DNA of 64,000 bases from Porphyrobacter sp. (lineage in GTDB: Bacteria > Pseudomonadota > Alphaproteobacteria > Sphingomonadales > Sphingomonadaceae), in contig JAPZUC010000002.1 of NCBI GenBank assembly GCA_027533455.1, positions 558,001 through 622,000 on the forward strand, written 5' to 3'. A model generated the notes under the pieces. The model was not told the DNA's origin. It was given only the letters and a program-made list of their open reading frames with translations, and made no database searches. The translations under genes and the position numbers were made by a program. Positions 46,205 through 61,955 of the stretch are shown here, one piece after another. Every line of letters starts with the position of its first letter. Positions within the stretch are counted from its first letter, which is position 1.

Positions 46205-46294
46205 GGACAGGTGGCCGAGTGGTTTAAGGCAGCGGTCTTGAAAACCGCCGTAGGTGCAAGCCTACCGTGGGTTCGAATCCCACCCTGTCCGCCA
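46205..46294 (+). tRNA. tRNA-Ser (anticodon TGA), island attachment gene
   Basis: A 90-nt class II tRNA: acceptor GGACAGG/CCTGTCC, anticodon stem GCGGT/ACCGC with loop CTTGAAA (TGA), a long variable arm (GTAGGTGCAAGCCTAC), T-arm GGGTTCGAATCCC and encoded CCA. Its last 14 bases (46281-46294) are repeated at 60120-60133, so it is the integration target of the adjacent island and remains intact after insertion. Confidence 0.97.
46281..46294 (+). repeat. attL: 14-bp direct repeat within tRNA-Ser
   Basis: CACCCTGTCCGCCA forms the 3' end of tRNA-Ser including CCA and is identical to 60120-60133. Confidence 0.85.
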
Positions 46295-46717: not shown

Positions 46718-47674
46718 TCATGCCAGATTGAAGACCGCCGGAAGCCTCTGCAGCAACCAAAATGCTCCGACCGAGCCTGCTCCCCAACAGAGCCACGTTC
46801 TGACTGGGTCTGCCCAGCCTGAGCGGTACTTCCGCATCAGAATAGACATCATCAGACCTACGGCCACCAGCAGCAATTGTCCCCCTTCGATGCCAAGATT
46901 GAACGCTAGCAACGCCATCGGCAATTGCGTTTGCGGCAGCCCAATGTCGCGAAGCGCAGATGCAAAGCCAAACCCGTGCAGCAATCCGAACAGCATTGAG
47001 ACGAGGACCGGGAAGCGAAACATGAGTGTGTCCTGCCGGCCTCGTAACGCTTCGGCGGCAAGAAACATCACGCTTAGTGCTATTGCTGCCTCGACTGGGG
47101 CTGGCGGCAATCCCGCAAGGCCGAGCGCAGCAGCACTGATCGACAAGGCATGGCCAAGCGTGAAACCGGTAACCGCAAACAGTATCCGCCTCGTTGAACT
47201 GGCAATGAGCACGAGGCATGCCAGGAAGGCGAGATGGTCCCAACCTCCGAGAATGTGGTCCAGACCCAGCAGAAAATACGCCGCCGATACCCCGCTTGCC
47301 GTTTCCCTCGCAGGTATCAGTACAATGCTCTGGCCTTCTGTGCCTAACGCGGTTGCCTGCTGCCCGTCCCGCCAGGTAACACGGACCAGAATTGGGACTG
47401 CGGGAGCTCCGTTGGGCCAGTCGAGTTCCGCCGAGGCGCCACTGAAGTCGCGAGGGCAGACGAAGTAGGAACCTTTCGCAGCGACACACGGCGCGGTCAG
47501 CCGGGCCTGCGGTGACATTGATTGTGGCACCGCTGGAGGAATTACCAATGTAAGCGAAAAACGCCCCACATCGCTTTCCTCTACGTTGACGGTGACGGGG
47601 AGACCGTCATGCGCACGCACTGGGAAGGCGAGCAAAAGGGCCAACAATACCGCCGCGAAGGCAGAACGGATCAC
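46718..47674 (-). CDS. HupE/UreJ-like membrane protein
   Basis: A 318-residue protein: signal peptide (about 1-21), a periplasmic beta-rich domain (about 22-125) with Cys63 and Cys73 that could pair, then about six transmembrane helices (from about 131). Histidines typical of HupE/UreJ nickel/cobalt permeases lie in GLDHILGGWDHLAF (His140, His147), FTLGHALS (His175) and LLHGFGFA (His233). This matches the two-part HupE_UreJ_2 type rather than classical HupE. Metal transport is inferred, not shown. Its start overlaps the PpiC stop as ATGA, and it ends the cargo operon. Confidence 0.85.
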   Translation of the reverse strand: MIRSAFAAVLLALLLAFPVRAHDGLPVTVNVEESDVGRFSLTLVIPPAVPQSMSPQARLTAPCVAAKGSYFVCPRDFSGASAELDWPNGAPAVPILVRVTWRDGQQATALGTEGQSIVLIPARETASGVSAAYFLLGLDHILGGWDHLAFLACLVLIASSTRRILFAVTGFTLGHALSISAAALGLAGLPPAPVEAAIALSVMFLAAEALRGRQDTLMFRFPVLVSMLFGLLHGFGFASALRDIGLPQTQLPMALLAFNLGIEGGQLLLVAVGLMMSILMRKYRSGWADPVRTWLCWGAGSVGAFWLLQRLPAVFNLA

Positions 47675-48558
47675 CGCAGCGCTCCCAATTCCGGCGCCAG
47701 CACAACCCGGTATTTTCCTGTCAGTTCAGCGATCCTTTGCGCTGCTTCCTGCTTTCGCCAAGCTTCTTGCAGATCGCTCGCCACCTGCGCTCGTACGGCC
47801 TCGAATGGCAATTGGCCGCCGCGTTCTGCCTTCTCGACCCAAACCAGATGAAAACCGTGCGGTGAAGCGAGAGGGCCAATCCAGCCTTGCTTTGCCTGAC
47901 CGGTGAAAAGGGCATCGGCCATGGCCTGCCCGAAGTGCGCGGCCACACTTTCCGGCGTCTGTTCGACATATGTCATGCTGTATAGAAAGCGATCGCCCGT
48001 ATCAGTTGGGTCGGTGCGTCCCGAAACCAGGCCATCGAGGGCTGCCGCAGCACGTTGCTCGCCATCGCGCCCACGGAAAAAGACATGCCGGAACGTGATG
48101 GCGGGCGCTTTGGAGTAAAGCTGCCTGTTGCCGTTGTACCATTTCTCTAACGCCGCCAAGCTTGGCACTTCTGCCTGGCGCACATCCGTTGTCAGCGCAT
48201 ACTCGGCGCTCTGGACCAGCCGCCGCCTGACGACATAGTCCTGACTGTCGAGCCCAAGTTCGAGCGCTTCACGGTAGAGTACTTCTTCACGGACATAGTC
48301 GTCCATCAAAGTGAGGCGCTCGGCACGCGACATCCGCTTGAAGCGTTGCTGAGCCTCCTTCTCGTCGAACAACCTGCTACGCAGTTGCAAAAACCGGACG
48401 AGATCGGAGCTTTCGACGGAAATTCGTCGCGAGCTATCATCCCAGCCCAAGGCCGGTGCAAACAATGCATGCGCCCCGAACAGCGTGCTTCCGGCCAATA
48501 TGAACAGGACGAGCGGCTCTCGCTTTGCCCACCCCAAAGGGTCCCACCACCTCATCAT
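47671..48558 (-). CDS. Membrane-anchored PpiC-type peptidyl-prolyl isomerase
   Basis: A 295-residue foldase. A single N-terminal anchor (about residues 15-35, LVLFILAGSTLFGAHALFAP) is followed by a helical region with DDYVREEVLYREALELGLD, typical of SurA-like N-domains. A parvulin-like domain (about 145-260) includes ITFRHVFFRGRD and GWIGPLASPHGFHLVWVEKAE. It would act in the periplasm, most simply on its cotranscribed partners. It lies 9 bp after the DUF3604 gene and is coupled to the HupE-like gene. Start could be either of two adjacent ATGs. Confidence 0.88.
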   Translation of the reverse strand: MMRWWDPLGWAKREPLVLFILAGSTLFGAHALFAPALGWDDSSRRISVESSDLVRFLQLRSRLFDEKEAQQRFKRMSRAERLTLMDDYVREEVLYREALELGLDSQDYVVRRRLVQSAEYALTTDVRQAEVPSLAALEKWYNGNRQLYSKAPAITFRHVFFRGRDGEQRAAAALDGLVSGRTDPTDTGDRFLYSMTYVEQTPESVAAHFGQAMADALFTGQAKQGWIGPLASPHGFHLVWVEKAERGGQLPFEAVRAQVASDLQEAWRKQEAAQRIAELTGKYRVVLAPELGALR

Positions 48559-48567
48559 CTTTTCAGG

Positions 48568-50460
48568 CTATGGCTCATACCAGATGGGAGAGGAATAGGC
48601 GCGATCCTGGACGGTCATTGGTATGCCGGCCTTCATCGCTCGTTGGAAGAACACGGCATCATAAGCAGTCCATCGAGGCTTAGGGATCTCGATCACTCTG
48701 ACATAATAGAATGCGCGAATACTGGGATCGAAATTCGGATCGGTCCATTGCACCGCCAATTCGGGATCCCCTATGGAGTTGGTGTAGGTAGCAGTCTTGA
48801 GATCGACAGTATTGCCGACCGGTGGTGCCTTGCCCGTTCGTCGATTAACACGACGTCCATCAGACAGTGCCACATCGTAGACCTTTTCGCGCAACTGTCC
48901 TTTCCCATCTACCCAGCCCTTCACGATTTGAATCCGGTCAAGGTTCGCTTCATCCGGGTCTTTGGCCGCTACCACCATGAAGCTGGGTCTCCGCCCCTTC
49001 TTTAATCCGCCGATCAAGTCGCCTCCCATCGGCACACCCTTGCGATAGCCGATCTGTGCGTAGTTTGGTCGGTCGACATCGCCGGGCGCAAAATCGAACC
49101 CACCGAAAAAGCGAAGCATGATGCGCGAGCCTGTCGTTCCATAGACTTCACGGCGCTTGAACGCAGCGAATATTGCCTCACGCGAGTTTTCTGGTGCCCA
49201 CACTGCAGCAAGGCCTGACGCGCCAAGTTCCCAGCTTTCCTGCAACACGCCTGCCATTTTCGCCTCGACCCGATTGGCAGATGGCTCTGATTCAGGAAAT
49301 TTGCCCCAGAAGTCATGCTCGGCCACGGCAGAATATCCAGTATGACTGTCGCTGGAACCAATCATCCCGAACTTGAACGGGTTGATCCCTATCCGCTGCT
49401 CATGCGCGAGACCCTCCAGCAGACCTGATCGGGCATATTCGTAACGCAGCATCCAACCCTGTTTGGGGGCTGAGAGCGAGATGTTGCCTTTGTCCCAGAT
49501 CTCGAAATTCGCAAACTCGTCAGTTGGCGAGAGCGCAGGATGGGTCTCCCCCGTCCCTTTGACCTGTGTCATCTCGTAGACGGGCTCCCAGCGACTACGG
49601 CGGCGCGCGTAGTCGGATGATAGCGCTACGCCCGAAAGCGTTTCCGGCGCGAACATGCGCCCGTTTGAAACATTGCCATTATGCGCGATCGCCAGAACCT
49701 GTCCGCCGGTCATGTCCTCGTAGGTCTGCAACGCAGCCCAAAGATCCTCCGGATCAGTGCTGTCCTGAGCAGAGAACGGCAAAGTCTGACCAACCTTCTC
49801 GCCTCCGTCACGAAACATTACGATACGGTGAAGGTTGTCCCCCTTGAGCATTGAGGTCCACTCGTAGCCACTAAATGCAGAAAAGCGGCTTGGCGCGTTG
49901 AAGCGATCAGCCGCTTGCCAAACTTCGTCCCAGATCGATTGACGCACACTTTCTGGCGTTTTCTTGGCTGGATCAGTGGATTGAATCGCATCGGCGAATT
50001 CCTCGCCAAGACCTACCCGCTGTTCGGCCGAGCGCAGCATCTCAGCCCAGCGCTGGCCTAGCGGCCAGCGCATCAGCACCGGGTCTCGCCCCTCGTTGAG
50101 CCGAGCGAAGACCCCCAGATATTCCGCATGATCGGTCACTACCAGGAAATCGAGCGGCCGGCGAAGCTTAACCGCCATGCCATTGGAAGCGCGCACAGGC
50201 AGTCCCATAGCAAAGCGAAAGGCATCTTCGCGGGTAATCCCCTCGTTGTGGGCGGTAAAGGCGTCGGCAGAGCTGCGCGTGTGAAGGTGCGTATCACCCC
50301 AATAGAGGTTTGTGACAGTTTCGTCTCGGACAACGGGTGAATAGCTGGCCGGCTGAACCCCATCGGACTTGGGCACGGCTCCCACGGCAATCGAAGCACT
50401 GGCCGCCAAAACAAGTCCGGAAAGCCCGCGAATCTTCAAACGTAATTTGTTGTCTGCCAT
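48568..50460 (-). CDS. DUF3604 protein, exported PHP-fold putative metallohydrolase
   Basis: A 630-residue protein of unknown function. The N-terminal ~28 residues form a signal peptide. Metal-ligand motifs of the PHP superfamily are present in order: GDTHLHT (His58, His60), TDHAEYLG (Asp110, His111), GYEW (Glu200), His211, IAHNGN (His260) and SSDSHTG (Asp371, His373). That is a full set for a multi-metal hydrolase, so a periplasmic phosphoesterase or related activity is likely, with unknown substrate. The ATG at 50460 is preferred because it precedes the signal peptide. It lies between the TonB receptor and PpiC genes. Confidence 0.88.
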   Translation of the reverse strand: MADNKLRLKIRGLSGLVLAASASIAVGAVPKSDGVQPASYSPVVRDETVTNLYWGDTHLHTRSSADAFTAHNEGITREDAFRFAMGLPVRASNGMAVKLRRPLDFLVVTDHAEYLGVFARLNEGRDPVLMRWPLGQRWAEMLRSAEQRVGLGEEFADAIQSTDPAKKTPESVRQSIWDEVWQAADRFNAPSRFSAFSGYEWTSMLKGDNLHRIVMFRDGGEKVGQTLPFSAQDSTDPEDLWAALQTYEDMTGGQVLAIAHNGNVSNGRMFAPETLSGVALSSDYARRRSRWEPVYEMTQVKGTGETHPALSPTDEFANFEIWDKGNISLSAPKQGWMLRYEYARSGLLEGLAHEQRIGINPFKFGMIGSSDSHTGYSAVAEHDFWGKFPESEPSANRVEAKMAGVLQESWELGASGLAAVWAPENSREAIFAAFKRREVYGTTGSRIMLRFFGGFDFAPGDVDRPNYAQIGYRKGVPMGGDLIGGLKKGRRPSFMVVAAKDPDEANLDRIQIVKGWVDGKGQLREKVYDVALSDGRRVNRRTGKAPPVGNTVDLKTATYTNSIGDPELAVQWTDPNFDPSIRAFYYVRVIEIPKPRWTAYDAVFFQRAMKAGIPMTVQDRAYSSPIWYEP

Positions 50461-50539
50461 TTTAACGCATCCCCTATGCGGATGGAGAGTGGCGACCGCG
50501 CCAGTTGCGGCCGCCACCTCCACTGACATGAACACAATA

Positions 50540-53092
50540 TCAGTAGCGCACCGTCGCTTGGACTTGAATGGTTCTGGGTGGTGCAATGTAGCCGATCTGA
50601 TCAGCTAGCCGCCAAGGTCCTGCAAAGGACCCCGCCCCAGCACCCGTATTGGGCGCATCGACACCTCCGGTTGCATAGAATTCGTTGCTGAGGTTCTTGC
50701 CGATTAGCGCCAGCTCCCACCTCTTATCCGCCGCCTTCAGCCGGATCGAGGCGTCGAGTTGCACGTATGATTCTTGTTCAGTATAGAAGTTTCCGAAAGC
50801 CGACGTGATGTAGTCATCGCTGAAGCGGCCGTCGAACGAAACGCCGACTGCCATGCTTTGGGATACAGGGCGTTCAAAACTGAACCCCATCGTTGCGGTC
50901 CAAAGGGGTGCATTCGCGGTCGGCAGACCCCTGAGGTTCTGCCGATTTGCGTTTTCACCTGCGGGGACTGGACCAATCGTTACGCCGATTGGAACTGGAT
51001 TGCCCGGAGCAAAAACATTTGTCGCCCTCAAGTTACAGCCCTGCGATTGGGTCTGTCCCTGATAGCATGGCGCGCCAGGCGAGTCGCCATATCGCGCCTT
51101 ATTGTAATTGAGGCTACCGTGCAGTTCGAAACCTTCAAATGCGTCTGGCTGGAACTGGTATTCCAGTTCGAATCCCTTAGTCGTGGCGGAACCAGCATTG
51201 ATGGTGGTGAAGGCGAAGATGTCGGAACGAAAGAAATCGAGCTGCAGATTGCTGAACTTGTACCAATAGGCGCCAAGATTAACTTTGAGCTGCCGACCCG
51301 CAAGAAGGGTCTTGATACCGCCTTCAACACCCTCCGCCGTCTCTGGTTCGAAGGCGAAGTCGTCAATGCCTGCGGTGGGGCTGAGAATCCCCGAGTTCGA
51401 AAATCCGCCTGACTTGTAAGCGGTCTTGTACGCGGCATAGAGCGTCACATCGTCGCTAGGCTGATAGGTAATCGTGGCCTCGGGCGACCAATCGGTCCAG
51501 CTCTGGTCCGCTTCAAGCGTAACGCCCGGCAGGAAGATGCCTTGCGCCACCCGGATCGGATGTGAATATGGCTGGAGGAAGTAGCTGTCTTTGGTTTCAT
51601 CCGTATAACGGACGCCGGCGGTGATTTCGATCTGATCGATCGGCTTGAAGATCAATTGGCCGAACACGGCGATCGTTTCGCCATTGGTTTGCGAGTCCTT
51701 CGAGTTGGCAAGATAGCGCCTGAACGCGGGCGTCGCCGCGCTATTCTCCAATCCGCCGGATGCAGTCCACGCCTGGTAGTCGCGGAACGTATCTTGATAA
51801 TACGCGCCCACCATCGCGTTAAGCGGCCCGTCGAATTCGGTTAGCATGCGAACTTCGGATGAAAAGGCGCGATATTTCGACCACTCGGTAGCCCAGACTT
51901 GCGTAGGCGAGATGGCTGATTGCGCACCGTCGGCATCGAATACGAAGATGTTGCGGTTCTGGTTGTAATTATTGACCCAGGTGAGGGTCATATTTTCGAA
52001 TTCATGTTCGATCGTGCCTGTGATCGACCAAGAGTAATACTTGTTGGCAAGATCACCGCCTTCCTGACCATAGGGGATGGAGTCTGCAATCGCCTGCGGG
52101 AACCGGTTCTGATAGGTGACGAATTGCTCGCGGCAAGGGATTGCCGCGTTGAACTGGTGAGACCCTGTCGGACAACGATACATCACGGCATTGCCGCTAG
52201 GGCTATTCGAGAGATTGTCGGCGTAACTTGCCTTGAGCGAAACCGTGGTCCTGTCCGTCGGGGTCCAACGCAGTGTTACCCTGCCGAGAATGTCTCGGGT
52301 GATCGGCATGAATTCGTCTGCAGCAGGCGCAGGATGTGGTGTCACTACGCCGGGAACTGCCGTAGTGGTGCGATCGGTGGTGGTGTAGACGATAGGTACG
52401 CCACGGTTTCTGAAAAGACCTTGTGAGCTGTCAGCATAACGCAGAGCGACGCGAATTCCCAAGGTGTCCGACAATGGACCCGAGGCCACAGCCTCGCCGA
52501 AATAGCTCCGGCCTTCGAATTCGTAACCCGCCTTGGCGATGAATTCCCGTTTGTCACCCGGATCGGCGGTTACGATATTCACCACGCCTGCGGTCGCGTT
52601 CTTGCCGAAGAAGAGTGCTTGAGGACCCTTCAGCAATTCGATCCTGCCCAGATCGAACAGGCCTTCGTTGATGATACGTCCCTGTCCAAAATACACCCCA
52701 TCCGCGACCACCGCGACTGATTGCTCGAGGCCGATCGAGGTCGTGTTGGCCCCTATGCCCCGCAGCACAAGGGTGGCGCCGGAGCCTGATGGCGAGCGAC
52801 CGATCACGAACTGCGGGCTGATTGCCGCAACGCGCTCAAGGCTGGACAAATCCTGCGCCGCGATGGCCTCAGCGCTGAAGCTGGTGACGGATACAGGGAT
52901 GTCCTGAGTGGATTCCTGCCGCTTGCGGGCGGTGACCACGATCTCCTGGATGCCGCCCTGAACATCGTCGCTAGCGCCTTCGGCCCCCTGCGCCTGCGCC
53001 AAGGCAGGTGTCGCCGCACAAAGCGCAGTCGTTGCAAGGAGGGTCCAGTGCAATCCTCTCGGCCCCAATGCGGCATTTTTCTTCAAGATCAT
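50540..53092 (-). CDS. TonB-dependent outer-membrane receptor
   Basis: An 850-residue receptor: signal peptide, plug domain with the TonB-box-like EIVVTARKR, QDIPVSVTSFS, VLRGIGAN and ELLKGPQALFFGKNATAGVVNI, then a beta-barrel ending in aromatic VRY, the BAM signal. It resembles the broad receptor group expanded in sphingomonads for carbon compounds rather than a specific siderophore receptor; the ligand is unknown. ATG 53092 is preferred since GAGAGG lies 8 nt upstream; 53098 and 53116 are in frame. It heads the cargo operon (79 bp before DUF3604) and is divergent from tetR. Confidence 0.93.
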   Translation of the reverse strand: MILKKNAALGPRGLHWTLLATTALCAATPALAQAQGAEGASDDVQGGIQEIVVTARKRQESTQDIPVSVTSFSAEAIAAQDLSSLERVAAISPQFVIGRSPSGSGATLVLRGIGANTTSIGLEQSVAVVADGVYFGQGRIINEGLFDLGRIELLKGPQALFFGKNATAGVVNIVTADPGDKREFIAKAGYEFEGRSYFGEAVASGPLSDTLGIRVALRYADSSQGLFRNRGVPIVYTTTDRTTTAVPGVVTPHPAPAADEFMPITRDILGRVTLRWTPTDRTTVSLKASYADNLSNSPSGNAVMYRCPTGSHQFNAAIPCREQFVTYQNRFPQAIADSIPYGQEGGDLANKYYSWSITGTIEHEFENMTLTWVNNYNQNRNIFVFDADGAQSAISPTQVWATEWSKYRAFSSEVRMLTEFDGPLNAMVGAYYQDTFRDYQAWTASGGLENSAATPAFRRYLANSKDSQTNGETIAVFGQLIFKPIDQIEITAGVRYTDETKDSYFLQPYSHPIRVAQGIFLPGVTLEADQSWTDWSPEATITYQPSDDVTLYAAYKTAYKSGGFSNSGILSPTAGIDDFAFEPETAEGVEGGIKTLLAGRQLKVNLGAYWYKFSNLQLDFFRSDIFAFTTINAGSATTKGFELEYQFQPDAFEGFELHGSLNYNKARYGDSPGAPCYQGQTQSQGCNLRATNVFAPGNPVPIGVTIGPVPAGENANRQNLRGLPTANAPLWTATMGFSFERPVSQSMAVGVSFDGRFSDDYITSAFGNFYTEQESYVQLDASIRLKAADKRWELALIGKNLSNEFYATGGVDAPNTGAGAGSFAGPWRLADQIGYIAPPRTIQVQATVRY

Positions 53093-53166
53093 GAGCATTT
53101 CCTCTCCCCGTTGCATTTAAAGGCATTTGAGTGCTGCCATTGGATCAATAGATGCCAGAGCAGAAA

Positions 53167-53186
53167 ATTAACGCACCTGTTTTAAT
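53167..53186. promoter_or_regulatory. Possible operator between TonB receptor and TetR genes
   Basis: The divergent gap holds an inverted repeat ATTAA-10 bp-TTAAT, a plausible size for a TetR dimer site. It lies in the AT-rich part of the gap where both promoters must be. The arms are short, so this is tentative. Confidence 0.3.
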
Positions 53187-53240
53187 GGGGAGTGATAGCG
53201 TGACTTGACGACAGTCGGTTTGAGTCCGATTTCATGCAGG

Positions 53241-53942
53241 ATGCCAACGGCCCCAACTTCGTCCGAAATCACACTCAAGAAAACGGGAGGGATTGATCTC
53301 GAACGACTTAGCGCGTCGAAGATACGCATCCTTGAGGCGGCAGAATCGCTCTACACGACCAATGCGATTGAAGCTGTGTCGCTCCGTGAGATTGCGCTCG
53401 CCGCCGGCAACCAGAATACCAATGCGGTGCAGTACCATTTCGGCGGCAAGGACGAATTGCTTCAGGCAATATTTAGCTGGCGCGTTTGGCAGATGGAGAG
53501 TCCGCGCCAGGCGATGCTCGCGCACGCCGAGCGCGATAACAAGCTTTCGGATTTGCGGACGCTCGCAGAAGTACTGTGCCTGCCGCTACTCGATTTGACC
53601 GATGCGGAGGGCCGCCACAGCTATGCGGCATTCCTCATCCAATATCAGCTCAGGATGCGACCGCTTGGCATCTCTCACGCGGCTGATGAGCCGACTTTCT
53701 CCAACAGCAACATCGCCAGACTGTTGCATTTGATCTATGATTGCATGCAAGTCCCCGATCGCGACAAGGGAGACTATCGCGTAGCCTTGGGGCACTTGAT
53801 CTTTGCAAACATGCTGGTCCTTTCGGACGTCGAGCAGCTGCCTCGCCGAGATCCGCAGGCATTTGCGAAAAGGATCGAGGTGACGCTCGACATGGTCGCT
53901 GCCGCATTTTCCGCCGGCGCTAGCGGTGGTCATTCGCGTTGA
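53241..53942 (+). CDS. TetR-family transcriptional regulator
   Basis: A ~233-residue repressor-type regulator. The N-terminal DNA-binding domain shows RILEAAESLY, the helix-turn-helix EAVSLREIALAAGNQNTNAVQYHFGGKDELLQAIF, and a helical ligand-binding domain follows. The HTH variant with NTNAVQYHF resembles regulators of hydrocarbon/steroid or acyl-CoA pathways, but no ligand can be named. It is divergent from the TonB receptor, so it probably controls the cargo operon. The start is uncertain: TTG 53205 is in frame upstream of ATG 53241. Confidence 0.88.
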   Translation: MPTAPTSSEITLKKTGGIDLERLSASKIRILEAAESLYTTNAIEAVSLREIALAAGNQNTNAVQYHFGGKDELLQAIFSWRVWQMESPRQAMLAHAERDNKLSDLRTLAEVLCLPLLDLTDAEGRHSYAAFLIQYQLRMRPLGISHAADEPTFSNSNIARLLHLIYDCMQVPDRDKGDYRVALGHLIFANMLVLSDVEQLPRRDPQAFAKRIEVTLDMVAAAFSAGASGGHSR

Positions 53943-54310: not shown

Positions 54311-54532
54311 TTAGGCGCTGAACCGTGCTGCGGGAGAGACGATCACTTGCAGGTCGTGGCTGATCATCAGCGGTGAGAAGGCGGCAAGTACGCGCTCCGC
54401 ATCAGCCTCTGTAACGATGGTCACGAACAACTGCTTGGCTGTAGTGCCGGTGACTTCATCCCGGCGCCAGCGACAGCCACGCCATCCCATCAGGCCCGCT
54501 CGGCTATCGTGTGGGGTCAATCTCTCTCTCAC
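54311..54532 (-). CDS. Small hypothetical protein
   Basis: A 73-residue ORF starting with GTG that overlaps the stop of the HGGxSTG gene (GTGA), which supports coupling. The C-terminal half (KQLFVTIVTEADAERVLAAF) predicts a beta-alpha-beta ferredoxin-like element, vaguely reminiscent of PII-like or DUF3240 proteins, but too short and diverged to assign. It is the last ORF of the satellite-like module. Confidence 0.45.
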   Translation of the reverse strand: MRERLTPHDSRAGLMGWRGCRWRRDEVTGTTAKQLFVTIVTEADAERVLAAFSPLMISHDLQVIVSPAARFSA

Positions 54533-54792
54533 GCATCGCGCCGCAACCCCTTTAGCAATTGACGCACTTCCGCACTCAAGGCCCGCGCCTCTTTCGTCTC
54601 GCCACCGTGCTTATAGCTACCGTTGCGCTCACCACGCGGTGCGCCCGAGCCTTTAGCGCCGCCGTGGAGCCTGCACCGCTTCTTGCCCGTCATCGCGGGG
54701 CAGCGGCACGGGTTCCCCGCCCGGTTGCGGGCTTGGCAAAGAGGGGCGTTCGTCAGCAGGGGACGCGCCCCGTTCATGGGGTTGTCCGTCAC
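54529..54792 (-). CDS. HGGxSTG-type small protein
   Basis: An 87-residue protein with CQARNRAGNPCRCPAMTGKKRC, a four-cysteine pattern suggesting a small zinc-binding fold, followed by LHGGAKGSGAPRGERNGSYKHG. This cysteine plus HGG/KHG signature is common in prophages and integrative elements; its role is unknown. A GTG start at 54792 fits best because GGAGGGGG lies just upstream. It overlaps the preceding gene by 140 bp in another frame. Confidence 0.7.
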   Translation of the reverse strand: MTDNPMNGARPLLTNAPLCQARNRAGNPCRCPAMTGKKRCRLHGGAKGSGAPRGERNGSYKHGGETKEARALSAEVRQLLKGLRRDA

Positions 54793-55486
54793 TTTCCCCC
54801 TCCCCCCTGTGATAGTGAATGTGCTGGTGTAGTTCCTTGCGGACATTGATCGACTGCTTTGCAGTGCGCCCACGCTGACGGAGCCGTTTCAGCGCCTCCA
54901 GTTGCTCAGTGAAGGCTCTAGCCAATTTGGCCGCAGTCGCCGCCGTCCGGGTGTCGCATTCGTATCGGAGCGCCATTGCCGATGCCTTCATGGTTAGGAG
55001 GTGAATGGCGACCATTTGCGCCGCGAGCGCTGCCTCCATCTCGTTCCTCGGCTTAACGCTGTTGACGATGCCAATGGCAGCACTGAACAGCTTCTCGTCG
55101 AGCCTCCATTGCTTTGCCTCTTCGTCCCAATGGTCAGGACCGCACAAGGCTTCTAGCTGCCGCATGAATGTCGCGATGACAGCTTGCGACCGTGTGCCGA
55201 AGGCATCGGCAAGCTGGAGCGTCCACAACCTAGGATCGTTGTGAGGCGCGGTCCAATGTTCTTCGTCCATGCCCGCCGCCTCCAGCATTACGCCGGGAGG
55301 ATAGGGCCGTGCATAGGCTCTGCGCTCTGCCGCTTCTTCCCAGTCACGCAGCTCGTCGGCTGGATCGGGGCGATTGCGGGTGCGACGCTTCCGGCGCGGC
55401 GTCGCAGCAGCGTCTAGCGACGCTGGATCAATAAGCCCGTCCTGCAGGGGTGGCGTTCCCGGACTTTGGCTTTTCTCACTTGGCAT
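54653..55486 (-). CDS. Phage/satellite-type hypothetical protein
   Basis: A 277-residue protein with a basic N-terminus (RRKRRTRNRP), a conserved-looking centre (MDEEHWTAPHNDPRLWTLQLADAF) and a helical C-terminal part rich in Arg/Lys (FTEQLEALKRLRQRGRTAK), ending in a low-complexity Pro/Arg tail. No domain is recognised. The pairing with an HGGxSTG gene downstream suggests a mobile-element function, possibly DNA packaging (inference). The start at 55486 is uncertain; the frame is open to 55579. Confidence 0.65.
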   Translation of the reverse strand: MPSEKSQSPGTPPLQDGLIDPASLDAAATPRRKRRTRNRPDPADELRDWEEAAERRAYARPYPPGVMLEAAGMDEEHWTAPHNDPRLWTLQLADAFGTRSQAVIATFMRQLEALCGPDHWDEEAKQWRLDEKLFSAAIGIVNSVKPRNEMEAALAAQMVAIHLLTMKASAMALRYECDTRTAATAAKLARAFTEQLEALKRLRQRGRTAKQSINVRKELHQHIHYHRGEGESDGQPHERGASPADERPSLPSPQPGGEPVPLPRDDGQEAVQAPRRR

Positions 55487-55642
55487 CAGTACGCCCTTTC
55501 TCGCGCGAGGCGACGATGCGAGGTCTGCAGATTCACGCGAGGGACGCATAGGGACGGTTGTTCCGTATGATTGCCACACGCGCGCGCACGTGGAGCCGAT
55601 AATGGGAAAAATGCGTCCAATGCGGCCCCATCCGTCCCTGCC

Positions 55643-57064
55643 TTAGTTCCAGCCATCGCTGCCTCCCTTTGGCTTTAGGGCAAGCCCGCGATAGACTCGG
55701 TGGCCCATTGTCTTTGCGGCCTGAAACCCAGCGCGCTCCAACTTGCTTTTCATGGATTTCATTGCGCCCGGATCGTCACCAGCCGCACGGGCGTAGTCCG
55801 TCCAATCGTTGTAGAGTTTCGCGGGCAGCTCCCACTTTGAGCGATCGCGTTCGCAGCGATCTTCGATCCATTGCCCGAACAGGTCTTGATCCTCGAAGTA
55901 ATCTGCGGTTGCGGCGGTCACGATTTCCGGCCTGACAAGCCCATTGGCCTGCCAGTCGAGACAACCAGCGATCGCCCAAGCGAGGATGCTACCAGCTTCA
56001 CCCTTCAGTTTGTCCTCTAATTCACGGTCGGGATTGCGGGGCTTCTGCGTGAACGGGATGATGTTGAACCTGCGGCGCGCCGCCTCATCCACGTTGCCCA
56101 GCACCGGCGCGTGATTGCCAACAATGACCAGCTTGAATTGCGGCACAAACTCGAAAAAGTCCTGCCGCATGAAACGGGCGCTGATCTTGTCGCCGCCTGT
56201 CACCTGCTTGATGCGGCTCTCCGCCCATGCGCGGCCTTCCTCGGTCTCGCTGGCGCTCACCAGCCGCGCCCCATTCAACATCGCAAGGTCCGTGGGGTGG
56301 CGGTCGTTCTTGCTAGCGGTGAAGGTCTCCATGCCTGCGGTCGTGGCGTAGTCCCCCAAGACGTAGTTCAGCAGGTTGAGGAAAACGGATTTCCCGTTGC
56401 CTCCCGGGCCATAGATGAAAAACAACGCGTGCTCGTTCGTCTGGCCGGTGAGGCAGTATCCCGCCACCTGTTGAAGGAAGCGCATGAGGTCGCGGTCGCC
56501 TGCGGTAGCCTGGGCGAGGAATTGCAGCCATAGACGCGGTTCGCCCGGCGTGGGCGCGGTTCCGGCCTGTTTGGTTATTAGGTCAGCGTGAAGCGCGGCC
56601 CGCAGCTGCCCGGTGCGAAGATCCACGGTTCCGCCGGGCGTCCCAAGGAGCCAAGGGTCGCGGTCCCAAACGTCGGCAGTAACTGCAAGCGCGGGATCGG
56701 CGCGGGCGAAGGCTTCAACCCCGCTCGCTGCGCTGGCCTTACAAAAGCCCTTTGCGCCCTCGCTCGCCTCGCGCGCAAGTTCGCGGGCGAAGTGGAACGC
56801 TAATTTGGTCTCATTGCGCTGCCACCGTCCCCCGGCCCACTCATACCAGCGCCCCGCGCTATGGTCGAAGCGCAGGCGGTTGCCGTGACGGCGCGCGAAG
56901 GCGAGCGCGATGGCATCCTCGCTAACTTCGCCATTGCGGCCCATGCTTGGCGCATAGTTTCCATGCGGGTCATCGTCCGGCTCTGCTTCCGGGCCGTGGG
57001 GATTAAATGCTCGGCCTTCGTGCTGCCGCGCAAGGCCATCAATGCGCTTCTCAAAGTCAGTCAT
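55643..57064 (-). CDS. P4/D5-type SF3 replicative helicase
   Basis: A 473-residue DNA helicase of the phage/plasmid primase P4 C-terminal family. Walker A is GPGGNGKS (residues 219-226), followed by MLNGARLVSASETEEG (Walker B region), TGGDKISARFM and KLVIVGNHAPVL (SF3 motif C). The D5_N domain precedes it. The N-terminal primase domain of P4 alpha is absent, so another priming source is needed. It would replicate the excised island. It overlaps the next upstream small ORF by 8 bp. Confidence 0.92.
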   Translation of the reverse strand: MTDFEKRIDGLARQHEGRAFNPHGPEAEPDDDPHGNYAPSMGRNGEVSEDAIALAFARRHGNRLRFDHSAGRWYEWAGGRWQRNETKLAFHFARELAREASEGAKGFCKASAASGVEAFARADPALAVTADVWDRDPWLLGTPGGTVDLRTGQLRAALHADLITKQAGTAPTPGEPRLWLQFLAQATAGDRDLMRFLQQVAGYCLTGQTNEHALFFIYGPGGNGKSVFLNLLNYVLGDYATTAGMETFTASKNDRHPTDLAMLNGARLVSASETEEGRAWAESRIKQVTGGDKISARFMRQDFFEFVPQFKLVIVGNHAPVLGNVDEAARRRFNIIPFTQKPRNPDRELEDKLKGEAGSILAWAIAGCLDWQANGLVRPEIVTAATADYFEDQDLFGQWIEDRCERDRSKWELPAKLYNDWTDYARAAGDDPGAMKSMKSKLERAGFQAAKTMGHRVYRGLALKPKGGSDGWN

Positions 57065-57374
57065 CGCACGCGCCCCTATTCAGCATATCGTGCATTTGCT
57101 CGGCCTGAAGCGCGGTTTTGAGCAGTCGCGAGGCGAGTTGGTTAAGCTGGTCGAGCCAAGCGAGCGGCGCGGGGGCGTAGAGGTTCGGGGTGGCCCACTC
57201 AATGACCTCCCATGCCAAATAGCGGGCCGTATCGCAGTCAGTGCGTGCAACTAGGGCGCTGGCAGCGTTTCGGTAGCTTTCCAGCTTGCGGCGGCGCTCA
57301 TACTCCTCGGCTGGGATACCATGCCCCAGGAACGTGCGGATCGAGTCGAGCGGGATAGTAGTGGGCGCGTTCAT
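57057..57374 (-). CDS. Small hypothetical protein in the replication module
   Basis: A 105-residue helical, slightly acidic protein with no recognised domain (visible segments ESYRNAASALVARTDC and LAWLDQLNQLASRLLKTAL). It overlaps the helicase gene by 8 bp and the next ORF by 4 bp (ATGA), so it is translationally coupled. Confidence 0.65.
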   Translation of the reverse strand: MNAPTTIPLDSIRTFLGHGIPAEEYERRRKLESYRNAASALVARTDCDTARYLAWEVIEWATPNLYAPAPLAWLDQLNQLASRLLKTALQAEQMHDMLNRGACDD

Positions 57375-57574
57375 TCGCTCGGCCCCCCCATGAATTCGCA
57401 GCTGTTGAGGCTGGCAAACGTCACGGCGAACCGCAGTGCGTTCGACCAGTTCGGGAAGGTGATTACGGTTGCGTCGCCGGGGCTATCGATCGGCATTACA
57501 TACGCAACCGGGGTGCGGGCCTGCGTATAGCTCCAGCCGGTCTGCGTATCGCCAAGTGTGCGGGTCTCAGCCAT
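57371..57574 (-). CDS. Small hypothetical protein in the replication module
   Basis: A 67-residue protein of unknown function. The centre (YVMPIDSPGDATVITFPNWS) suggests beta strands and is not similar to anything I recognise. It overlaps both neighbours by 4-8 bp, consistent with a coupled operon of tiny genes. Confidence 0.6.
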   Translation of the reverse strand: MAETRTLGDTQTGWSYTQARTPVAYVMPIDSPGDATVITFPNWSNALRFAVTFASLNSCEFMGGPSE

Positions 57575-57770
57575 GGCCTTGCCCTCCGAATGCGAGGCTC
57601 GCCATCATCGCGGCGAGGTCCGGGCGAATGCCGTGCTCGACGATAAGGTGTTGAGCGCGGTATGCGGACAGGGTAAGGGTGTCTTGCAAGCAGCCGCTCA
57701 GTTGATTGCACGAAGCCCCGCCGGTTGCAGCCAGCGGGGTTTCATTTTTTGGGGTCTGATAATGGCCCAT
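57567..57770 (-). CDS. Small hypothetical protein in the replication module
   Basis: A 67-residue protein with a helical C-terminal part (LSAYRAQHLIVEHGIRPDLAAMMASLAFG) and no known domain. Its stop overlaps the next ORF start by 8 bp, and it begins 3 bp after the alpA-like stop. Confidence 0.6.
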   Translation of the reverse strand: MGHYQTPKNETPLAATGGASCNQLSGCLQDTLTLSAYRAQHLIVEHGIRPDLAAMMASLAFGGQGHG

Positions 57771-57773
57771 GCC

Positions 57774-57962
57774 TCAGCTCTCCCCATGGATAAGGGCGTG
57801 GAGCGATTCCGCCGGGATCACGGTCCGCCCGCCAACGCGGACAGCGCGCAACTCATTTGCGGCAATCTTGGCATAGAGGGTGGTCTTGCTAAGGCTGGTA
57901 GCTGTCACCGCCTCGCGGATCGAATAGGCGAGTTTCGGAAGTTCAGGTCTAATGGTCTGCAT
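57774..57962 (-). CDS. AlpA/excisionase-type DNA-binding protein
   Basis: A 62-residue MerR-like/excisionase fold: LAYSIREAVTATSLSKTTLYAKIAANELRAVRVGGRTVIPAESL is the winged-helix pattern used by AlpA and Xis proteins. Such proteins activate integrase transcription or direct excision. The ATG at 57962 is preferred because a GAGG lies about 8 nt before it; an upstream start adds 11 residues. It heads the coupled small-ORF and helicase run. Confidence 0.82.
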   Translation of the reverse strand: MQTIRPELPKLAYSIREAVTATSLSKTTLYAKIAANELRAVRVGGRTVIPAESLHALIHGES

Positions 57963-58028
57963 AGAGATACCTCGTTCGGAATTGAACGAGGACAATTTCA
58001 GACGGAAACTCTCCCGGTTAAATCTGAC

Positions 58029-58709
58029 TTAACCGTATTTCGAGGATAGCAGGGGGTGCTTTGCCATTCTCTCGATCCATCCCAATGTATTGTCGAGAGC
58101 GACGGGCCAGTTGGGATCGGTGCGACATTTTTCGATAAACGCTTCGACTTCTCGTCCAACCTTTGCATCGTCCAAGTTTAGCGAATCCGCTTTTGCCTTG
58201 TTGCACCAGTCTTGAACGGTGGAGGCGCTTAGGGGATTGCCTTTTCGTCCAGTCGCCCCGGCTGCTGCAAATCTACCAGCGACAGCCTTAACCGCCATAG
58301 TTTCCCGCCAGTCGTGCGCCTCAACAAGCAAGCGGACAGATCGAACGACGAAGACCTTGAGGTAATTTCGAGCAATTCCATCGCCTCCCGGTTTCCCTTT
58401 GGTGGACATTGCGAAAAGCCGGGGACTCCCTCCCATGACAACATCATGCAATGCCCCGGCAACATCGTGGAGGACTGCCGCCCCTTTCGAGTTCTCAAAA
58501 AGCGGAAGTTCTCGAAGGGCACGGTGCACAGCAATCAAAATCTCAGTTGCACGGGCCTGCTTCAGATTTAGGCCAGCAAAGTGTCGAGAGTCGTCAGCGA
58601 CTTGCCACGGGGTGGCAAAATATTCCTCGCCCAGCACTTCTAGCTGAGAGTGGAGACGCTGCGCCCAGTCAGTGGGGTCCGGCCAATCGGGGTTTGTCTG
58701 CTTGCTCAT
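58029..58709 (-). CDS. Hypothetical protein downstream of the integrase
   Basis: A 226-residue protein of unknown function, mostly helical, with a possible HTH-like segment near residue 150 (GNPLSASTVQDWCNKAKADS). The start at 58709 overlaps the integrase stop as ATGA, so the two are coupled. A role in regulation or excision is plausible but unproven. GC content looks lower than the flanking chromosome by eye. Confidence 0.7.
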   Translation of the reverse strand: MSKQTNPDWPDPTDWAQRLHSQLEVLGEEYFATPWQVADDSRHFAGLNLKQARATEILIAVHRALRELPLFENSKGAAVLHDVAGALHDVVMGGSPRLFAMSTKGKPGGDGIARNYLKVFVVRSVRLLVEAHDWRETMAVKAVAGRFAAAGATGRKGNPLSASTVQDWCNKAKADSLNLDDAKVGREVEAFIEKCRTDPNWPVALDNTLGWIERMAKHPLLSSKYG

Positions 58710-59953
58710 GCCGCCACCTCTCCCCTTATAGGTGTGACTTTGCCACCAGCCGGAGCGCCGCTTGCGCAGTAGGTTGCCCAATCCGCCATAAGCCGCCGCC
58801 GCTTGTCGAATAGATCGCCGCGCCGATAGGCCCGCTCCACCGCGTTGCCGATTGTATGCGCCAACGCCATCTCGGCTACCTCATGCGAATAGCCGGTGCA
58901 TTCCGCCGCCCAATCGCGGAACGCGGACCGGAAGCCGTGAACCGTTACGTCCAGCTTCATGCGGCGAAGCAGCATCGCCATGGCCATGCTGGACAGCTTG
59001 GAGCGTTGCGCGCCGGGGAACAGGTATTTGCCGCCCAGCTGCTTCGTTTCCTCCAGTATCGCAATAGCGCGAGGGGACAGCGGAACGCGGTGTTCCTTGC
59101 CCGCCTTCATGCGCTCGGCTGGCACCGTCCACAGTGCCTTGGCCAGATCAATCTCGCTCCATTGGGCGGCGATAACCTCGCCCGTCCGTGCTGCAGTGAG
59201 AATAACAAACTCCAGCGCTAGCGCCGCAACCGCTTCGCGCCCTTGCAGCTGCTCCACAAAGGCGGGGATCGCATCATACGGCATGGCCTTGTGATGGCCC
59301 CGCGATAGCTTTGTGCGGGCGGGGAGGATTTGCGCCAAGTGTCCGCGCCAACGGGCGGGGTTTTCGCCTTGTCGATAGCCGCGCGCCTTGGCGCTATCGA
59401 GCACGGTTTCAATCCGCCCCCGCAACCGGCTCGCAGTCTCGGGAACCTCGCGCCAGATCGGCTCCAGCACCTTGAGCACGTGCGGGGTATCGACCGCGGC
59501 AACCGGCAGATCGCCAATCATCGGATAGGCATAGGTCTGGAGCGTGTTCTCCCATTGCTGCTTATGTTTGGCATTGCGCCAGCTATCCTTGTTCGCCGCG
59601 ATATGGGTTTCCGCCATCGCCTTGAACGTAATTCCGGCGACCTTCGCCACCTGTTCCGCTGCCTTCGCCTCAGCCTCGGAGCGTTGCCGTTCCTCCAGCG
59701 GATCAATGCCCGCCTTGACCTTTAGGCGAAGCGCGGTCGCCAGATCGCGGGCATCGGCGAGCGAGATACCGCCGGGACCAGCCGGACCTAGGCCAACATC
59801 CCGCGACTTGCCCTTGAGCATGAACCGATAAACCCAAGAGCGCGCCCCAGTCTCTTTCACCAGCAAGTGCAGCCCCCCGCCATCGGCATGGCGACCGGGC
59901 TTCGCAGTCTTGACCTCCACGGCGGTAAGCGCGTTGTGCAGTTTGCGCGGCAT
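58706..59953 (-). CDS. Tyrosine-type integrase (DUF4102/P4-like)
   Basis: A 415-residue site-specific recombinase. The N-terminal DUF4102 arm-binding domain (LTAVEVKTAKPGRHADGGGLHLLVK) precedes the core-binding and catalytic domains. The catalytic residues are Arg256 (TAARTGEV), Lys near 286, His339 and Arg342 (VHGFRSAFRDW), His366 (LAHTIGN) and Tyr376 (ERAYRRGD). All are present, so it looks active. It lies 167 bp inside attR and reads into the island. This family typically integrates into tRNA 3' ends, consistent with the tRNA-Ser repeat. Confidence 0.95.
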   Translation of the reverse strand: MPRKLHNALTAVEVKTAKPGRHADGGGLHLLVKETGARSWVYRFMLKGKSRDVGLGPAGPGGISLADARDLATALRLKVKAGIDPLEERQRSEAEAKAAEQVAKVAGITFKAMAETHIAANKDSWRNAKHKQQWENTLQTYAYPMIGDLPVAAVDTPHVLKVLEPIWREVPETASRLRGRIETVLDSAKARGYRQGENPARWRGHLAQILPARTKLSRGHHKAMPYDAIPAFVEQLQGREAVAALALEFVILTAARTGEVIAAQWSEIDLAKALWTVPAERMKAGKEHRVPLSPRAIAILEETKQLGGKYLFPGAQRSKLSSMAMAMLLRRMKLDVTVHGFRSAFRDWAAECTGYSHEVAEMALAHTIGNAVERAYRRGDLFDKRRRLMADWATYCASGAPAGGKVTPIRGEVAA

Positions 59954-60119: not shown

Positions 60120-60133
60120 CACCCTGTCCGCCA
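60120..60133 (+). repeat. attR: 14-bp direct repeat of the tRNA-Ser 3' end
   Basis: CACCCTGTCCGCCA is identical to 46281-46294. It lies 12 bp beyond the lpdA stop, so the uninterrupted chromosome would have tRNA-Ser followed directly by the lpdA 3' end. The upstream tRNA body is missing here, so this is not a second tRNA gene. Confidence 0.85.
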
Positions 60134-60145
60134 CGTTACCCACCC

Positions 60146-61555
60146 TTAGAAGTGCAGCGCCCTCCCGTAGGCGTTGAGCACGCTTTCGTGCATCATTTCC
60201 GACAGGGTCGGGTGGGGGAAGACGGTCTGCATCAGTTCGGCCTCTGTGGTCTCGAGCGTCTTTCCGACAGTGTAGCCCTGGATCAGTTCGGTGACTTCCG
60301 CGCCGACCATATGCGCGCCCAGTAATTCGCCGGTCTTGACGTCGAACACGGTCTTGATGAAGCCCTCCGCCTCGCCGAGCGCGATCGCCTTGCCGTTGCC
60401 GATGAAGGGGAAGTTTCCGACGCGCACCTCGTAACCCGCCTCCTTTGCCTTGGCTTCGGTCATGCCGACTGAGGCTACTTGCGGGTGGCAATAGGTGCAG
60501 CCCGGAATGTTGTTGCGGTTCAACGGGTGCGGGTGGACTTCGGTGTTTCCCAGTTCCTGTGCGATCGCTTCTGCGGCGGTGACGCCCTCGTGGCTGGCCT
60601 TGTGCGCAAGCCATGGCCCGGGCGTGCAGTCACCGATCGCCCAGAGCCCAGCGGACTTGGTGCGGCCATAGGGATCGATCTGGATGAAGCCGCGGTCCAA
60701 ATCGGCAAGGCTGTCGAGCCCGATATTCTCGGTATTGGGCACGATGCCGATGGCGACGACCACGTGGGAGTAATCACCGGTTGTGATGTTCCCGGCCCTG
60801 TCTTTGATCGTCGCCGTCACTCCATTCGGCGTCACCTTCAGACCCTCCAGTCCGACGCCGGTGTTGATGGTGATACCCTGCTTTTTCAGCGACTTTTCAA
60901 GGAAGGCCGACACTTCGTCGTCTTCCACCGGCACGATCCGGTCGAGCAGTTCGATCACCGTCACTTCGCTGCCAAGATCATTGTAGAAGCTCGCGAACTC
61001 AATCCCGATCGCGCCCGATCCGATCACCAACAGCTTGGCCGGCAGCTCGGTCGGGGTCATGGCGTGGCGATAGGTCCACACGCGCTTGCCGTCGGCAGGG
61101 GCGAACGGCAGATCGCGCGCCCGCGCACCGGTCGCCACGATGATGTGTTTGGCAGAGAGCTGCTCCTCGCCGTTATCACTCTTCACCGTCAGGCTGGTCG
61201 GACCTGTCAGGGTGCCCTGCCCCATGTGCACCGTGATCTTGTTCTTCTTCATCAGGTGCGTGACGCCCTGATTGAGCTGCTTGGCCACGCCGCGGCTGCG
61301 CTTGACGATAGCGGCAAGATCCGCTTCGATTCCCTGCGCGACGAGGCCGTAATCGCCGGCATGCTGCATGTAGTGGAAGATTTCGGCTGAACGCAGCATC
61401 GCCTTGGTCGGTATGCAGCCCCAGTTGAGGCAGATGCCGCCCAAGTTCTCGCGCTCGACGATTGCGGTCTTGAGCCCGAGCTGCGCGCAGCGGATCGCCG
61501 CGACATAGCCGCCGGGTCCGGAACCCAGCACGATCACGTCATAGTTAGTGGCCAT
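60146..61555 (-). CDS. lpdA: Dihydrolipoyl dehydrogenase (E3)
   Basis: Re-oxidises dihydrolipoamide on E2 with NAD+. The 469-residue flavoprotein has the FAD-binding VIVLGSGPGGYVAAIR, the redox disulfide GGICLNWGCIPTKAML, a second dinucleotide fold LLVIGSGAIGIEFASFY and the C-terminal dimer interface with HPHPTLSE-like HPTLSEMMHE. The ATG at 61555 is favoured since AAGGA lies ~8 nt upstream; ATG 61561 is possible. It overlaps the thioesterase gene by 11 bp. The island begins 12 bp past its stop. Confidence 0.97.
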   Translation of the reverse strand: MATNYDVIVLGSGPGGYVAAIRCAQLGLKTAIVERENLGGICLNWGCIPTKAMLRSAEIFHYMQHAGDYGLVAQGIEADLAAIVKRSRGVAKQLNQGVTHLMKKNKITVHMGQGTLTGPTSLTVKSDNGEEQLSAKHIIVATGARARDLPFAPADGKRVWTYRHAMTPTELPAKLLVIGSGAIGIEFASFYNDLGSEVTVIELLDRIVPVEDDEVSAFLEKSLKKQGITINTGVGLEGLKVTPNGVTATIKDRAGNITTGDYSHVVVAIGIVPNTENIGLDSLADLDRGFIQIDPYGRTKSAGLWAIGDCTPGPWLAHKASHEGVTAAEAIAQELGNTEVHPHPLNRNNIPGCTYCHPQVASVGMTEAKAKEAGYEVRVGNFPFIGNGKAIALGEAEGFIKTVFDVKTGELLGAHMVGAEVTELIQGYTVGKTLETTEAELMQTVFPHPTLSEMMHESVLNAYGRALHF

Positions 61556-61955
61556 TGTCATTGTCCTTGGGGAGGAGAAGCGGTTCCTGCGCCGCGATGG
61601 CGCGCGGGCGGTTGTCATCGCCGATCAGCACGAACTTGAATGTGCCTTGGGCGACCTTGACGGTGGTTTCGCCGTTTCGCTCGCGGGCGATGGCTTCTGC
61701 GGCGATGGTCATGGAGGTGGTGCCGGTGGCGAGGACCTCGCAATAGACGGAGAGTTCGTCGCCAACGGCCATCGCACCCGGAAAGGCGAAGTCGGTTGCC
61801 GAGACGACCACCGCCTTGCCCTGCCCGACGCGGCTCGCGAGCGACCCTGCACCGAGTGCCATCTGTGCCATCAACCACCCGCCGAACACCCCGCCATAGG
61901 GGTTGGTGTCGGCCGGCATGGCGGTGACGCGGATCTGGGGGGAGCGGTCAGTCAT
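61545..61955 (-). CDS. Acyl-CoA thioesterase, hot-dog fold
   Basis: A 136-residue YciA/BFIT-type thioesterase. The segments ADTNPYGGVFGGWLMAQMALGAGSLASRV (helix plus catalytic Asp/Asn region), ATDFAFPGAMAVGDELSVYCEV and VAQGTFKFV fit the family. It would hydrolyse acyl-CoAs; the chain length is unknown. It is coupled to lpdA downstream (11-bp overlap) and overlaps the membrane gene upstream by 8 bp. Confidence 0.92.
   Translation of the reverse strand: MTDRSPQIRVTAMPADTNPYGGVFGGWLMAQMALGAGSLASRVGQGKAVVVSATDFAFPGAMAVGDELSVYCEVLATGTTSMTIAAEAIARERNGETTVKVAQGTFKFVLIGDDNRPRAIAAQEPLLLPKDNDNGH

Follow-up and report, generated by a model that had tools for sequence, protein, structure and literature searches.

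Which of the five cargo genes on a genomic island of Porphyrobacter sp. (Sphingomonadaceae) belong together, and what might they do jointly? The genes, encoding a HupE/UreJ_2 protein, a PpiC-type foldase, a DUF3604 protein, a TonB-dependent receptor and a TetR-family regulator, are the cargo of an integrase/primase island in tRNA-Ser, within a 64,000-nucleotide stretch of contig JAPZUC010000002.1 (positions 558,001 to 622,000; hereafter the window). We found that the conserved unit is DUF3604-PpiC-HupE, with TonB and TetR as local additions, and that DUF3604 and the foldase-permease pair show a near-strict tie at the genome level. We lean, if only slightly, towards PpiC and HupE being dedicated maturation (folding and metal-handling) partners of exported metallohydrolases. 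Profile matches confirmed the five genes and the families to which an initial annotation of the window had assigned them:

46718..47674, minus strand: HupE/UreJ_2 protein (HupE_UreJ_2, PF13795, 141 bits)
47671..48558, minus strand: PpiC/Rotamase_2 foldase with an N-terminal membrane anchor (PF13145, 47.4 bits)
48568..50460 (open reading frame, ORF, open from 50586), minus strand: DUF3604, predicted exported PHP-fold metallohydrolase with a C-terminal Ig-like domain (PF12228, 774 bits)
50540..53116, minus strand: TonB-dependent receptor, plug and barrel (PF00593, 126 bits; PF07715, 49 bits)
53205..53942 (likely ATG at 53241), plus strand: divergent TetR-family regulator (PF00440, TetR_N, 32 bits)

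In a draw of 299 genomes from the phylum, full-length DUF3604 was detected in 16 genomes (26 copies) spanning ten families (f1, f5, f7, f9, f12, f13, f21, f28, f30 and f45); rows from G031, G122, G130, G162 and G243 were not counted as full length. Scores were bimodal for both partners: with PpiC (alignment A3), 17 genomes score 267-348 bits and the best of the rest 80, and with HupE (alignment A2) those 17 score 339-436 bits and the best of the rest 220. PpiC rows at 75-80 bits (G001, G084, G090, G241, G254) were not counted as triad-type. The 17 genomes with the pair are all 16 with full-length DUF3604 plus G162, in which a DUF3604 remnant with an in-frame stop lies beside the pair (L265, contig C12), which seems to have outlived its enzyme. 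All 21 PpiC loci of this draw adjoin HupE, and 20 of the 21 pairs stand beside DUF3604 or its remnant, the exception being G262, where DUF3604 is ~41 kb away.

The search of the family draw (249 genomes) was confined to DUF3604 and PpiC. Both were found in 78 genomes, DUF3604 only in three, PpiC only in two (G416, G473) and neither in 166, with DUF3604 fragments or weak hits (G315, G319, G335, G392, G442) and PpiC matches below 200 bits (G241, G319, G327, G351, G385, G390, G444) not counted as positive. The DUF3604-only genomes are G374, which is 66% complete, G462, with one copy at a contig edge, and the complete G383. Fisher tests gave 1e-25 for the phylum and 3e-58 for the family, values that ignore phylogeny. 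Within the 18 kb read around them, the triad-type PpiC genes of G416 and G473, which belong to one genus, stand without HupE or DUF3604 (L257, L258).

PpiC and HupE could also be general envelope helpers, PpiC acting for instance on the TonB receptor, whose association with DUF3604 reflects ancestral linkage or shared mobile transfer with no functional need. The genes are indeed mobile, being carried by an island here, and DUF3604 relatives occur in 79 of 72,556 plasmid records, mostly of Rhizobium and Sinorhizobium and all less than 60% identical; their neighbours vary widely, and G383, G416 and G473 hold one part without the other. Yet the pair is absent from 282 of the 283 phylum-draw genomes that lack full-length DUF3604, and among 45 genomes of named loci with no adjacent pair, 31 encode PpiC elsewhere at 190 bits or more, seven at 125-176 bits, and seven gave none at E 1e-20. 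Moreover, a labelled homolog of the island TonB receptor is present in only 13 of the 80 triad loci. We consider this explanation unlikely.

Locally, we looked for a same-strand PpiC-HupE pair at most 3 kb from DUF3604 and found one at 45 of 60 family loci, at 11 of the 20 phylum loci (DUF3604 itself matched only weakly or partially at three of the 20, those of G122, G130 and G243) and at 24 of 80 named loci; of the 43 named loci whose flanks reach 4 kb or more on each side, 18 have the pair. The gene order DUF3604-PpiC-HupE is prevalent (59 of 82 tabulated loci). That the three genes stay together elsewhere agrees with the initial annotation and runs against the outcome it had named as a refutation; the four-gene unit it proposed, with the receptor included, was not borne out. 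Homologs of the island TonB (phmmer, E ≤1e-6, a threshold that more distant receptors would escape) occur in 12/45 family, 0/11 phylum and 1/24 named triad loci, and relatives of the island TetR in two of 161 loci by BLASTP at 1e-10 (L142, L159), with a weak third by phmmer (L152). TonB and TetR were rejected as members of the conserved unit since few triad loci carry relatives of either. As for HupE, of 30 HupE_UreJ_2 loci fetched by the Pfam model (~1.5 kb flank), PpiC adjoins five, all scoring at least 392 with the triad HupE model, and the remaining 25, where PpiC is not adjoining, score 97-223; HupE_UreJ_2 proteins of other subfamilies have no such PpiC neighbour.

Still, all four or five island genes might form one dedicated nutrient-scavenging system, with the receptor ligand being the enzyme substrate, a proposal compatible with a maturation role of the pair and, in our estimate, not quite an evenly balanced one. 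The receptor and triad genes share one strand and are closely spaced, with 79 bp between TonB and DUF3604 (if the latter begins at ATG 50460), 9 bp between DUF3604 and PpiC, and a 4-bp overlap of PpiC and HupE; they may be cotranscribed. Judging from the sequence, ATG 50460 for DUF3604 and ATG 53241 for TetR are likelier starts than the mechanical TTG codons at 50586 and 53205. Locus L159 partially matches the island set, with TonB (49% identical) and TetR (35%) beside the triad, and L142 keeps a TetR relative near it. The rarity of TetR relatives and of close TonB homologs weighs against a single system, as does the second triad of the same genome (contig C8, L003), which lies beside CoA-transferase- and MaoC-like genes (named by eye) and has no TonB or TetR gene adjacent. 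When compared with solved structures, the receptor matched only the pesticin receptor at 1e-10 (54 bits), and all six matches of the regulator were to the TetR DNA-binding part; matches of this kind name a ligand for neither. In the divergent region, a 10-nt palindrome at its receptor end (53112-53125) is a candidate, unproven operator; the promoters and terminators counted did not exceed those of shuffled sequence (4 vs 3.6 and 5 vs 7.9, respectively).

The DUF3604 protein belongs to its family by a match covering profile positions 4-591 of 591 (774 bits, cut-off 20.4), and models as an exported PHP metallohydrolase with nine putative metal ligands (H58, H60, D66, H111, E200, H211, H260, D371 and H373), all invariant (80/80). 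The model, which shows a PHP fold, supports the exported PHP-fold enzyme proposed initially. The ligands were paired by order, not by superposition, with the PolX residues quoted in PMC6616362. DUF3604 is frequent in the family, with matches in 86 of 249 genomes and as many as five match rows in one genome, and named loci span Acidobacteriota, Planctomycetota and Myxococcota besides Pseudomonadota. CehA/McbA metallohydrolases (NF038032) have a PHP-type core, and 27 of 50 DUF3604 members show weak profile similarity to them (best 5e-7); membership of the window protein was rejected at 12.3 bits against a curated cut-off of 80. Neither DUF3604 nor HupE found a meaningful match when its sequence was searched against solved structures. 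A close parallel in a sphingomonad is Sb-PDE of Sphingobium TCM1, likewise a Sec-type exported PHP-domain hydrolase, a phosphodiesterase of 441 aa in which zinc makes up >97% of the metal (PMC5460133). It differs in belonging to PF02811 rather than PF12228, and the accessible part of that paper mentions no PpiC or HupE partner (PMC5460133).

Neighbouring genes do not reveal the substrate: two-gene flanks are diverse and no single pathway emerges. The tally covered 127 of the 293 proteins on the triad side and 141 of the 217 on the DUF3604-only side, picked at random by residue limit. Among the 25 commonest families listed, the TonB barrel accounts for 6/127 and 3/141, respectively, and HlyD, OEP and MaoC for six, five and four of the 127. 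One triad of the island subclade (G369, L144:11109-19258) adjoins genes for an alcohol dehydrogenase, two luciferase-like monooxygenases, an SDR protein, a TonB receptor and a LuxC-type acyl-CoA reductase, a possible catabolic cluster that may hint at the substrate class.

The PpiC protein scores 47.4 bits with the Rotamase profile (cut-off 27), and its family profile matches CBF2, SurA, HP_0175 and PrsA. A hydrophobic segment at the N-terminus of all 36 rows upholds the membrane-anchored foldase of the initial annotation. Of two putative catalytic histidines, the second is invariant (36/36), and the first is His in 17 rows, Gln in 18 and Leu in one; the window protein has His.

HupE (PF13795, 141 bits, cut-off 24.5) consists of a signal peptide, a putative mature N-terminal His22, a beta-sandwich head (~25-121) and a transmembrane permease part (structure model pLDDT 89.0). 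The putative mature N-terminal residue, with the cleavage site read by eye, is His in 21 and Asp in 13 of 34 rows. H140, D146, H147, H175, H233 and E263 are invariant (34/34). Of the HupE nickel-permease motifs HX5DH and FHGX[AV]HGXE, the first may correspond to the invariant H140-x5-D146-H147, and the second reads LHGFGFA in the window. In the HupE model, a permease carries a periplasmic head similar to the zinc protein ZrgA. In the structure search that gave ZrgA, most rows above it match only the helical part of HupE to unrelated membrane proteins, and 9GCE (Ang-1) is not among the best 50 rows; Foldseek gave no match at E ≤0.001, the best being BbZIP, a ZIP transporter, at E 0.027, which we do not use as evidence.

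The architecture is that of the anglerases Ang-1 and Ang-2, described in 2025 as PF13795 proteins with a periplasmic metal-binding head (PMC12537917). Like them, the window protein has a signal peptide, a periplasmic beta-sandwich head fused to the HupE/UreJ-2 permease and a putative mature N-terminal His, and ZrgA is the nearest fold of both heads (PMC12537917). The mature N-terminal His, fully conserved in Ang-1, is not so across the triad rows. The window head, of ~95 residues, is also shorter (the linker of RbAng-1a lies at residues 176-184), and the triad HupE is paired with PpiC, whereas the anglerase paper contains neither "peptidylprolyl" nor "DUF3604" (PMC12537917).

We propose that the island acts as a substrate-uptake and hydrolysis unit around the three-gene module. 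A substrate would cross the outer membrane by way of the TonB receptor, with TetR turning on expression of the operon. DUF3604, once exported, would reside in the periplasm or outer membrane and act on a phosphoester- or ester-type substrate. PpiC would be held in the inner membrane by its anchor, its domain facing the periplasm, and would help the exported enzyme to fold. The head and the metal-permease part of HupE would capture a transition metal and keep it available for the enzyme or insert it, and a single PpiC-HupE pair may serve several DUF3604 copies in trans. HupE proteins are thought to import. The initial annotation had HupE possibly supplying metal across the inner membrane: its link to a metalloenzyme is supported by the co-occurrence with DUF3604, but import into the cytoplasm is a doubtful route, because alone it would not provide metal to an enzyme folding in the periplasm, for which a metal-capturing periplasmic head or export would be needed. 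The head may hand metal on to the enzyme, the permease may be an exporter, or HupE may only recover leaked metal.

HupE could instead move the product of the hydrolase across the inner membrane, with PpiC aiding assembly of HupE or of the enzyme, so that the triad would be a hydrolyse-and-import pathway. The tight genome-level link between enzyme and membrane protein fits this as well, but the six invariant HupE residues look like metal ligands and the head resembles a zinc protein.

A variant of the pair bears on both possibilities. Four family genomes of four genera (G327, G351, G385, G390), in none of which DUF3604 was matched, encode a diverged PpiC-HupE pair (PpiC 169-191 bits, HupE 224-240), and the four PpiC proteins form one clade (100/99). 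Directly upstream of PpiC in G385 is an arginase-family gene (PF00491, 249 bits) with a signal-peptide-like N-terminus. Used as a query against the 249 family genomes (E ≤1e-60), it matched only these four, each time on the contig of the pair, a coincidence with a chance of ~6e-9 (hand arithmetic, uncorrected for kinship). The gene adjoins the pair only in G385 and is ~4, 9 and 17 kb off at its nearest in the other three. The neighbour of the pair in G327 and G351 encodes a UrtA-like binding protein (Peripla_BP_5), a branched-chain-type permease gene is found near it in G390, and a TonB receptor gene lies nearby in G327 and G385. These loci are possible periplasmic ureohydrolase clusters, with the following predicted exported arginase-family enzymes besides those of G327 and G351:

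L259:7471-8931 (G385)
L260:14416-15975 (G390)

Product transport would also suit a change of enzyme to the arginase type, which is expected to yield urea; yet UrtA-like binding proteins already stand beside two of the arginase-linked pairs, and overall we regard a product carrier as quite unlikely. The strongest hint of what the pair serves, exported metallohydrolases as a group and not the chemistry of DUF3604, comes from this enzyme swap, which predicts the job of the pair irrespective of enzyme fold. An arginase homolog (502 bits) also lies ~5 kb from the DUF3604 tandem of L005. L264 (G469:C1:498525) holds a further diverged PpiC-HupE pair, with a DUF3604 tandem ~10 kb away and a molybdopterin oxidoreductase gene nearby.

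A comparable arrangement is the metformin hydrolase operon, with hypA, hypB, two ureohydrolase genes and hupE (PMC11399263). There, too, a hupE homolog adjoins a metallohydrolase that needs metal delivery, and urea-transport genes are found, as near the arginase-linked variants; it differs in its HypA/HypB nickel chaperones and an enzyme fold unrelated to DUF3604, and the accessible part of the source mentions no PpiC (PMC11399263). As a broader and more tentative proposal, possible but not favoured, PpiC-HupE may be a portable two-gene envelope cassette for folding exported metallohydrolases and loading them with metal across unrelated folds (PHP-type DUF3604, arginase-type ureohydrolase), acting in trans on all copies in the cell as a periplasmic counterpart of cytoplasmic nickel delivery and travelling here, with client enzyme and receptor, as island cargo. 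The metformin hydrolase system is reportedly cytoplasmic.

The island itself is a 13.84-kb element bounded on each side by a copy of the 14-base 3' end of tRNA-Ser, an exact repeat of which 0 are expected in 100 shuffles. Its integrase, primase and duplicated tRNA att (attachment) site fit a P4-like integrative element, a provisional class, and confirm the mobile element first noted here:

46205..46294, plus strand: tRNA-Ser(tga), the integration target (ARAGORN; Rfam tRNA, 62.7 bits)
46281..46294, plus strand: att copy 1, the 3' end of tRNA-Ser (exact 14-bp repeat)
54653..55579, minus strand: predicted element ORF without Pfam, NCBIfam or PHROG match
55643..57064, minus strand: P4-type primase/helicase C-terminal protein (TIGR01613, 289 bits; phrog_6088, 412 bits)
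57774..57995, minus strand: ORF for a small putative helix-turn-helix protein, without PHROG match
58706..59953, minus strand: tyrosine integrase (Arm-DNA-bind_3, Phage_int_M, Phage_integrase; phrog_1, 164 bits)
60120..60133, plus strand: att copy 2, the right island end adjoining lpd (14-bp repeat)
60146-61618, minus strand: lpd, beside att copy 2

Integrase and primase occupy the end opposite the cargo and are the two of ten ORFs scanned with PHROG matches; between cargo and integrase (54529-58781), the ORFs apart from the primase have none. The small ORF at 57774..57995 presumably resembles AlpA/excisionase, by eye only. GC content (2-kb windows) is 0.57-0.59 across the cargo, compared with 0.59-0.68 for the parts of the window beyond the element. 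Two of six relatives checked, both of the same genus, show an empty site with tRNA-Ser(tga) beside lpd (gap ~45 bp in L253, ~300 bp in L254), the 14-bp core being exact in the tRNA of L254 and not in that of L253; the other four have no tRNA within 1.5 kb of lpd and are uninformative.

An origin outside the genus is probable for the island triad, as indicated by the PpiC tree, the one built among the three proteins, together with DUF3604 identities. In that tree, island PpiC groups with L144, L142 and L159 (11-row clade, 100/99), and the chromosomal copy lies in a separate genus clade; island DUF3604 is 44% identical to the other copy of the genome (alignment A1) and 62-64% to those of these three loci. 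Its best database match, on a 4.8-kb contig, is 97% identical, followed by ≤80%. DUF3604 as a phage cargo gene was rejected, given no tblastn match at 1e-5 among 50,697 phage records. An IMG/VR contig classed as viral (L250) carries a DUF3604 gene 48% identical, possibly another mobile carriage, with no PpiC or HupE within the 17 kb fetched around it.

Literature searches, whose coverage leaves out most subscription journals, found no description of the DUF3604-PpiC-HupE triad, in agreement with the initial annotation, which knew of no characterised system of such composition. They found no described function of DUF3604 (the term appeared in one paper only, according to its title on Chlamydia transposon mutants), no occurrence of "PF12228", and no relevant title among the matches listed for HupE/UreJ joined with prolyl-isomerase. 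Folding and metallation outside the cytoplasm are, in our judgement, a poorly understood step. A helper pair that, among the genomes studied here, rarely occurs without its enzyme suggests an undescribed way to fold and metal-load enzymes there, and its tie to DUF3604 offers a direct, testable handle on both processes. For integrase/primase islands, the locus adds metabolic-type cargo to the known loads.

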